Shown here piece by piece: positions 41,411-43,208 of a stretch of 61,882 nucleotides of DNA (within the stretch, counting starts at the first letter, position 1; every line of letters begins with the position of its first letter). This DNA is from an uncultured Arthrobacter sp. (lineage in GTDB: Bacteria > Actinomycetota > Actinomycetes > Actinomycetales > Micrococcaceae). Where the stretch lies: contig NZ_CADCTE010000198.1 in the NCBI RefSeq assembly GCF_902805515.1, positions 1 through 61,882 of the forward strand, written 5' to 3'. A program made the position numbers and the translations under genes. A model generated the notes under the pieces. The model was not told where the DNA came from. It saw only the letters and a program-made list of their open reading frames with translations, and did not search any database.

Positions 41411-42079
41411 GTGAACCCGACAGAACCCGATACCAGCACCGAGGCCACGGCTCGGAGCGCCGCGGTGGACATGAAGCTGGAGGTGATCGTTATACCGGTT
41501 GCCGACGTCGACCGCGCGAAACAGTTCTACGACAGCCTGGGGTGGAGGCTCGACGGCGAACGCGTCGACGGGAACTTCCGCAGCCTTCAATACACACCCC
41601 CCGGCTCCGGATGCTCGGTTCAGTTCGGCAGGCAGGTCACGCTGGCCGAGCCTGGTTCCGCCCGGGGCACGCACCTGATCGTCACCGACATCGAAGCGGC
41701 GCGCCGGGACCTCGTCTCCCGGGGTGTTGATGCGAGTGAGGTCTTCCACTGCGAGTCCGGTTACGCGTGCAGGTTTCCAGGCAACGACGAGCCCGTTCCC
41801 GGGCCCCATCCGGAGCGCGGCACCTACGGGTCGTTCGTCTCGTTCAGTGATCCGGACGGCAACAGCTGGATCCTGCAGGAGATCACTCAGCGGTTCCCGG
41901 GCCGCGTTCAGGGCGGGACCGCGTTCGGCTCGCCCGCCGACCTCGCCCAGGCACTCGAGCGCGCCGCCGCGGCCTATCAGGACCTGGAGAAGCGCAACAC
42001 CCAGGAGGACCCTAACTGGGCGCAGTGGTACGCCTCGTACCTCGCACGGGAGCAGAGCGGCGAGGAACAGACGTCATAG
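41411..42079 (+). CDS. VOC (glyoxalase-like) protein with C-terminal helical tail
   Basis: The 222-residue product has a VOC domain at about residues 18-165 (LEVIVIPVADVDRAKQFYDSLGW, FVSFSDPDGNSWILQEI). A tail of about 45 residues follows (ALERAAAAYQDLEKRN and WAQWYASYLAREQSGEE) that resembles the protein encoded by the next gene on the other strand. VOC proteins include dioxygenases, isomerases and drug-binding proteins; the activity here is open. The GTG start follows GGGAGG. Confidence 0.9.
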   Translation: MNPTEPDTSTEATARSAAVDMKLEVIVIPVADVDRAKQFYDSLGWRLDGERVDGNFRSLQYTPPGSGCSVQFGRQVTLAEPGSARGTHLIVTDIEAARRDLVSRGVDASEVFHCESGYACRFPGNDEPVPGPHPERGTYGSFVSFSDPDGNSWILQEITQRFPGRVQGGTAFGSPADLAQALERAAAAYQDLEKRNTQEDPNWAQWYASYLAREQSGEEQTS

Positions 42080-42103
42080 CATCTGGGAGGGCACCCGGAG
42101 TGG

Positions 42104-42292
42104 TTACTGCCCACCGCCCTCGAGGTGCTGGACGGCGTCGTCGTACGCCTGTTCCGGGGTGCGGCCCTGCTCGCGCGAGACGATAAACGCTGCATACCAG
42201 TCCGGCCACGCATGAGGAGCGGAGTTTGCTTCGTACTTGCCGTGGTGTTCCTCGGCCTCATGGAGAAGTGAGGTCAGTGTCGACACGTCCAT
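42104..42292 (-). CDS. Stand-alone homologue of the VOC tail domain
   Basis: The 62-residue product, STLTSLLHEAEEHHGKYEAN followed by WPDWYAAFIVSREQGRTPEQAYDDAV, matches the C-terminal tail of the VOC protein in spacing and in the WxxWYAxxxxREQ core. AAGGACC precedes the ATG. It is convergent with the VOC gene, 24 bases away. Probably a small helical partner; function unknown. Confidence 0.75.
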   Translation of the reverse strand: MDVSTLTSLLHEAEEHHGKYEANSAPHAWPDWYAAFIVSREQGRTPEQAYDDAVQHLEGGGQ

Positions 42293-42412: not shown

Positions 42413-43105
42413 TCAGGGGGCGAGTTCGACGTCCTCACCCCGGAGGTTCGCACGGAATCCGTCGTCCCTGACCGCGACGTCCTGGAGCACGAGGCCCTCC
42501 GGCAGGCCCTCGATGTCGTGCTCAATAGTCACAAACCTGCGCACGACGGCGGCGGTGGCATCGGAGAGGAAGTCCGGCCCGCCGACATCGATCGACCGCG
42601 GTTCGAGAACCAGCCTGCCGTCCTCAACATCGACGGTGCCGGTGGCGGTGACGCGCAGTTCGCGGCCCAGGGCCTCGACCGTGCGGACCACCGTGGCCTG
42701 GCCGCCGTCGGCGGCCCGGATCACCGACCCGCCGCCGAGCTCCTCGGCGACGACCTCGTACGGCACCGTCGCGTCCACGGCGAGCCGGCCGGCGACGAGC
42801 CCCTCGGGGCCCGAGACCACGTCCTGGCCGACCGCCCGGACGTCGTGGAGCACCGATCCCGCCGTCACCAGCGTCCCGGCGTCGAGGTCAAGGTCTGCGA
42901 GCCACACCTCGTCCTCGCGCAGCCCGTCCGGTGGCACGGCGCCCATCGGGCGCCCGGTGCCCTGTGTAGGCGACGGCTCAGGCTCAGCTTCATTCCCGTT
43001 CGCCGGGTCGCTTGCCGCCCACCAGAGGACGACGAGCGCAACGCCCAGGGCGAGAACCATCCCTCCAGCACCGATCAGCCAGTCCTTCGCACGCTTCCAC
43101 TCCAT
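42413..43105 (-). CDS. DUF2993 (LmeA-like) secreted/anchored protein
   Basis: The 230-residue product has an N-terminal signal anchor (LIGAGGMVLALGVALVVLWWAA), a Pro/Glu/Thr linker, then a beta-rich domain matching DUF2993: WLADLDLDAGTLVTAGSVLHDV and FVTIEHDIEGLPEGLVLQDVAVRDDGF. Mycobacterial LmeA of this family is linked to lipoglycan synthesis; the function here is inferred only. ATG 43105 lies six bases after CAGACT. Confidence 0.82.
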   Translation of the reverse strand: MEWKRAKDWLIGAGGMVLALGVALVVLWWAASDPANGNEAEPEPSPTQGTGRPMGAVPPDGLREDEVWLADLDLDAGTLVTAGSVLHDVRAVGQDVVSGPEGLVAGRLAVDATVPYEVVAEELGGGSVIRAADGGQATVVRTVEALGRELRVTATGTVDVEDGRLVLEPRSIDVGGPDFLSDATAAVVRRFVTIEHDIEGLPEGLVLQDVAVRDDGFRANLRGEDVELAP

Positions 43106-43117
43106 GAGGACAGTCTG
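43106..43117 (-). promoter_or_regulatory. Weak leaderless promoter of DUF2993 gene
   Basis: CAGACT (43112-43117, minus strand) with exactly six bases to ATG. The same hexamer and spacing occur before rnz. It departs from TANNNT at the first base. Confidence 0.4.
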
Positions 43118-43208
43118 ATGGTTCACCGCGTGAGGAGCGACACCCCCGCTGGTCGGACACGCCGGAGGTCACACTGCCCGGGGTTCGCGGTGCCCCGCCG
43201 GGCCCAAG

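Follow-up and report, generated by a model that had tools for sequence, protein, structure and literature searches.

The question raised by this locus is whether the C-terminal tail of a VOC (glyoxalase/bleomycin-resistance-like) protein and the product of a small gene that faces it are versions of one and the same module, and, if so, what such a module would do for VOC proteins. VOC proteins are widespread, many of them are without a known substrate, and they are usually treated as self-contained. The following features were identified at this locus in the window, by which we mean the whole stretch of DNA that was analysed (61,882 nucleotides from an uncultured Arthrobacter sp.):

41411-42079, + strand: VOC (glyoxalase/bleomycin-resistance-like) protein of 222 aa with a GTG start, stop codon included; open reading frame matching PF00903 and PF22677
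41471-41905, + strand: VOC domain of a subfamily ending in about LQE-I/V-TxRxPGR (A8 profile, E 1.1e-70)
41927-42076, + strand: C-terminal fused module, short subtype, about 50 aa (A3 and A4 profiles)
42104-42292, - strand: 62-aa gene of the free module (long subtype), convergent with the VOC gene (profile match)
42413-43126, - strand: LmeA-like gene (PF11209, E 2e-11), oriented like the free module gene and next upstream of it, at a distance of 120 bp

The VOC part of the larger protein scored above the Pfam cut-offs of the VOC/glyoxalase-bleomycin-resistance superfamily (PF00903, 28.9 bits versus a cut-off of 20.6; PF22677, 30.1 bits versus 24.5). The free module gene starts with an ATG at 42292, 7 bp behind a Shine-Dalgarno-like GGAAGG, and ends with a stop codon at 42106-42104 of the - strand, its open frame reaching 101 aa if counted from an upstream GTG. 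The stop codons of the two genes face each other at a distance of 24 bp, and scans for promoters and terminators found nothing. The protein encoded by the free gene is 98 % identical in Arthrobacter crusticola and Arthrobacter sp. MSA 4-2, and the codon differences were 10 synonymous and 1 non-synonymous over 60 codons relative to the former and 6 synonymous and 1 non-synonymous over 62 codons relative to the latter. Given the ratio of 10:1 relative to A. crusticola, the small gene seems to be genuine and under constraint, and by these codon counts purifying selection appears to act on it. A match to the LmeA-like gene was present in 30 of the 38 genomes examined for the genus, and 17 of the 20 LmeA-like loci examined were without a VOC gene or a free module within ~1.5 kb; this neighbour is probably outside the VOC-module system.

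Homology of the fused tail and the free protein

The VOC tail and the 62-aa free protein were confirmed to carry a homologous module. A pairwise BLASTP of the window VOC protein versus the free protein produced no match at E ≤ 100, and the best ungapped register of tail and free protein contained 7 identities; since the pairwise search was silent, the two window sequences do not by themselves prove homology. Profile-level similarity, by which the initial annotation had proposed to check its claim, was found both by profile alignment and in a shuffle test. For the former, a profile of the free proteins of Arthrobacter, Modestobacter and Variovorax with the Nostoc VOC tail (A2) was aligned by hhalign to a profile, A3, made from a split copy and the tails of three VOC proteins, giving 97.4 % and an E-value, for this single comparison, of 1.1e-11 over 42 columns. 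For the latter, a fused-tail profile built from 23 of 34 listed fused short tails scored the free protein at 33.3 bits, compared to 16.0 bits for the best of the shuffled sequences (20,000 made, 19,714 scored). In addition, the A3 profile retrieved the free gene in a whole-genome search at E 5.2e-6, and the free protein directly matched the fused VOC tail of a Rhizobiaceae MAG (L007) at E 3e-7, with only the candidate stretches as the search space. That the two short sequences resemble each other around W-x2-WYA by chance, which would sit well with the empty pairwise search, the few ungapped identities and an REQ triplet that is out of register, is refuted at the profile level by the hhalign, genome-search and shuffle results together with the direct match to L007, and we regard it as extremely improbable.

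The core shared by tail and free protein is L-x6-H-x3-E...W-x2-W-Y-A...G, in which, across 18 chosen modules, W-x2-WYA is invariant and L10, H17 and E21 are nearly so. The initial annotation had described the likeness as a WxxWYAxxxxREQ core with the same spacing in both proteins. The homology of the module that this core pointed to is upheld by the profiles, but the common spacing of REQ is not: the tail has WYA-x4-REQ and the free protein WYA-x5-REQ, so that REQ is shifted by one position, and in the alignment it is the following G that lines up. The initial annotation had also viewed the small gene as a copy of the VOC tail, and here the identities point the other way. The window free protein is 19 % identical to the neighbouring VOC in the alignment versus 53 % and 47 % to the free modules of Modestobacter and Variovorax, respectively, and an inverted duplication of the 3' end of the VOC gene was rejected on those values. 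Judged by them, the VOC tail and the free gene are diverged subtypes and not a fresh duplication.

Subtypes and distribution of the module

We refer to the module as the WYA module, a name coined in this analysis. The short subtype, of ~50 aa, is mostly found as VOC tails and ends soon after the G, and the long subtype, of ~60 aa, has an extra segment beyond the short type. The long subtype is free in Arthrobacter and Modestobacter, fused in Nostoc, and split in Variovorax (L006) and two actinomycetes (L173 and L181); the window holds one short (fused) and one long (free) module. Conservation in the first segment has a periodicity of 95-100 degrees, which is helix-like, and in the second segment one of 75-80 degrees, which is not plainly helical; the module is probably alpha-helical.

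The view of the initial annotation that this is a domain without a known name was supported, as no Pfam or NCBIfam model came near its cut-off for the module. GST_C_2 (15.5 bits versus a cut-off of 24.9) and Fe_hyd_SSU (score far below its cut-off) were considered and rejected as the identity of the module. A phmmer search of PDB with the free protein provided no identity (best E 0.74), the module profile matched no PDB chain at E ≤ 5, and a literature search of open-licence PMC texts found nothing on the module. The best reading is that the module is an unnamed accessory domain or subunit of a VOC subfamily. The VOC part is an ordinary member of a known superfamily.

The module profile produced at least 28 matches in at least 25 of 388 Actinomycetes genomes and at least 17 matches in at least 12 of 398 Pseudomonadota genomes, the counts in both groups being lower bounds, with up to 17 candidates scored per genome. 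Among the 28 Actinomycetes matches listed, 13 are fused to an intact VOC and nine are split, with the module in its own gene just behind the VOC stop codon; the others are one module fused to a frameshift-broken VOC (G347), two behind a truncated VOC (G096) or a C-terminal VOC stub (G197), one degenerate fusion (G073), the window free gene and one orphan (G370). The 17 Pseudomonadota matches listed comprise 14 fused modules, one split, one remnant and one free module (G556:C56), the last with no VOC within 6 kb. Of the 45 matches listed in the two groups, 43 are thus joined to a VOC gene, or to what is left of one, or lie near it, the exceptions being G370 and G556:C56. The short tail also matched 143 of 72,556 plasmid records, and the Modestobacter long module matched one record, of Nostoc, which carries the long form fused to VOC. 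The initial annotation had called for a survey of fused and free forms and for recurrent co-occurrence, and in the matches from Actinomycetes and Pseudomonadota fused and separate forms do recur beside VOC.

The usual separate form of the module is a same-strand split gene directly behind a tail-less VOC, and this too differs from the picture of a VOC tail copied into a neighbouring gene. In the 10 split loci (nine from Actinomycetes and that of Variovorax) the VOC stop codon comes right after the PGR motif, or one residue later in Variovorax, and the module gene has its start 5-32 bp past that stop codon in eight of the 10 and ~70 bp past it in one. The split module of G113 has no ATG, GTG or TTG start, and in the split pair of G062:C106 the N-terminal part of the VOC is in another frame.

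A number of less regular copies were also seen. At L179/L025 (G197:C26:3877-4014) only the final residues of the VOC, up to the stop codon, are left, and the module gene with its ATG is retained. Two free modules, L180 and L195, have no VOC within 6 kb; the former (G370:C9:36240-36356, E 4.9e-5) is the orphan, a more distant module in a protein of ~100 aa. Loci L068 and L098 carry degenerate or broken copies. Among IMG/VR contigs called viral, five loci (L099-L103) encode relatives of the fused VOC L007, module included; a pattern scan of viral contigs made for the Variovorax free protein found no relative of it.

Viewed from the VOC side, the A8 profile had at least 42 matches at E ≤ 1.3e-51 in an Actinomycetes class sample of the same size as the 388 genomes of the module scan, up to 10 candidates being scored per genome. 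Among the 42 matches listed, 13 were fused, nine were split and 20 were without a module following; one of the last (G413) has a split pair nearby in the opposite orientation. Given that 20 of the 42 listed lack a following module, the module is dispensable, and the VOC-side counts set against the module-side counts indicate that the module depends on the VOC far more than the reverse. A tree of 69 VOC domains, in which the deep forks are weak, one locus was entered twice and changes were counted without direction, implied at least nine changes between module and no module, at least seven between fused and split and at least two between long and short. Among VOC columns tracking the presence of the module, none separated module-bearing from module-free proteins cleanly and hence no docking face was found. 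Metal-dependent VOC proteins have as ligands a His in the first strand, a mid-domain His and a C-terminal Glu, positions that we take to correspond to residues 26, 88 and Glu157 of the window protein. Residue 26 is a His in one of 46 module-bearing VOC rows and two of 23 others, and residue 88 in 14 of 46 and eight of 23, being mostly Y or Q in the remainder; the Glu is present in 44 of 46 and 22 of 23. With the ligand positions so assigned, the usual metal-dependent site seems to be incomplete.

Arthrobacter genomes and neighbouring genes

The fused VOC and the free gene were found together in three of 38 genomes of the genus when scanned with the A3 profile, and the free protein as query returned the same three among 35 genomes of the genus. 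No other genome among the 38 has a VOC of this subfamily at E ≤ 1e-45. A fused VOC with a free module gene convergent to it was observed in these three related genomes only; in them a CFA synthase, an alpha/beta hydrolase, LmeA, the free module and the VOC form a common syntenic block. Because they share this block, the arrangement was probably inherited from one event, and as the genomes are near relatives, the co-occurrence may likewise represent a single event. In addition to the fused VOC, each has other VOC copies, none of which has a module within 1.5 kb: three in G000 (C67:21132-21563 and two on C1), four in G007 and three in G013.

One of the three, G013, also carries two adjacent genes, each with two WYA modules in tandem (G013:C34; L197:5850-6720, also L041). 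They are located between an epoxide-hydrolase-like and a TlpA-like thioredoxin gene, 1.6 kb downstream of a tail-less VOC of the same orientation, and their modules are not fused to VOC; the tandem-module protein had no match in the 72,556 plasmid records at E 1e-3. A degenerate-looking module-like stretch is present elsewhere in this genome in a locus without a VOC (L038, G013:C8:13968-14078; E 7.6e-10, confirmed by A4), and two weaker stretches, also in loci without a VOC, were found at L042 (G007:C1) and L043 (G000:C73), for which A4 gave no confirmation at E 0.01. In Modestobacter (L005) ~1.6 kb separates the free module from a tail-less VOC of the same orientation, the order being free module, FAD/NAD-type oxidoreductase and tail-less VOC.

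Neighbour families were named from their sequences and from annotated members. An epoxide-hydrolase family gene was near 15 of 54 module-bearing loci versus one of 18 module-less VOC loci, and a pyridine-nucleotide-type oxidoreductase near 11 of 54 versus two of 18; since some loci are entered twice among the 54 rows (L006/L196 and L004/L198) and the phyla of the two sets are not matched, these counts are only a lead. In five of six plasmid records, chosen from 61 listed rows, an annotated epoxide hydrolase was near the VOC gene, and in the Nostoc record it was absent. Fused VOC-module genes on plasmids of rhizobia, Microvirga and Rhodococcus (L154-L158) are located near annotated epoxide hydrolases, and near some of these are cupins, SDR, GST and methionine sulfoxide reductases. 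The neighbourhood fits a role, suggested by gene content, in dealing with small molecules that are reactive or toxic, which would be either bound or converted.

Proposed role of the module

The occurrence of the module either as a VOC tail or as its own adjoining gene points to a role as a partner of these proteins. The interpretation that we favour, and consider probable, is that the WYA module is a helical accessory module of one VOC subfamily with a single VOC domain ending in about LQE-V/I-TxRLPGR, that it is present as a fused domain or as a separate subunit and docks on the VOC, and that the free copy in the window acts in trans. The module would be either fused as a C-terminal domain, short or long, or made as a small subunit from the next gene, whose start lies close behind the VOC stop codon. 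It would most likely dock on the VOC domain or its dimer and, in doing so, help to shape or close the ligand pocket or stabilise the dimer; because docking would amount to surface recognition, a covalent link would be optional. The window VOC has a short module built in, and the extra long-type copy would probably act in trans on the adjoining VOC or on VOC paralogues without a tail that are encoded elsewhere in the genome. In the three Arthrobacter genomes the additional free copy may in this way serve the tail-less paralogues. This interpretation draws on the homology of tail and free protein, the recurrence of fused and split forms, the coding constraint on the free gene and the presence of tail-less paralogues. 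Weighing against it are the VOC relatives without a following module, the lack of a VOC column that cleanly tracks the module, the close relationship of the three Arthrobacter genomes, the modules and module-like stretches with no VOC nearby or only a VOC stub, and the periodicity of the second segment. A bolder version of this scheme, which we put forward only tentatively and think somewhat doubtful, is that the WYA protein is an exchangeable subunit of several VOC cores per cell that would set the ligand or the tightness of its binding, with the tail being the hard-wired form, and with the Arthrobacter free copy and the G013 tandem proteins serving the tail-less paralogues in trans.

The module might instead be a loosely attached, near-neutral tail, for example one that aids solubility or stabilises a dimer, with the free Arthrobacter gene a by-product retained from a split ancestor; splitting and loss would then be tolerated because the module does little. 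This would account for the relatives without a following module (20 of the 42 listed), for the degenerate or broken copies at L068 and L098 and for the startless split module of G113, but it is difficult to match with the invariant W-x2-WYA and nearly invariant L10, H17 and E21 of the chosen modules, with the apparent purifying selection on the free Arthrobacter gene, or with the start close behind the VOC that most split genes have kept, and we consider it unlikely. Still less probable, in our judgement, is that the free protein is now independent, with some other partner such as the nearby oxidoreductase, epoxide hydrolase or alpha/beta hydrolase, and that its link to VOC is only ancestral. 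The unfused tandem two-module proteins of G013, the more frequent epoxide-hydrolase family genes near module-bearing loci (with the repeated loci and unmatched phyla of that comparison) and the module kept beside a VOC stub at L179 could all be read in this manner. Against it, even the tandem proteins are preceded, at 1.6 kb and in the same orientation, by a tail-less VOC, and 43 of the 45 matches listed have a VOC gene, or what is left of one, attached or close by.

If the favoured accessory-module interpretation is true, one VOC subfamily would be a two-part protein, its partner module recurring as a separable piece across actinobacteria, proteobacteria and a cyanobacterium, and a set of unnamed genes of 50-60 aa would become interpretable. 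The solved chains nearest to the window VOC part, which they resemble, are 5ump, 5uhj and 5umq, called glyoxalase/bleomycin resistance protein/dioxygenase; the matched stretches stop within the VOC domain, and the chains are without a module match. Several of the solved chains matched here we take to be ligand-sequestering VOC proteins of the TnmS1-3 type. A role in tiancimycin sequestration is reported for tnmS1-3 (PMC9854587). The VOC-module proteins described here differ from that type in having no assigned ligand.

The arrangement also resembles the Rosetta-stone pairs. Two parts that are encoded sometimes by a single gene and sometimes by neighbouring genes show a classic sign of interaction, and the VOC and the module occur in just these two states. 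It differs from such pairs in that a third state, a VOC without any module, is common, and in that three Arthrobacter genomes have a fused VOC together with an extra free copy facing it.
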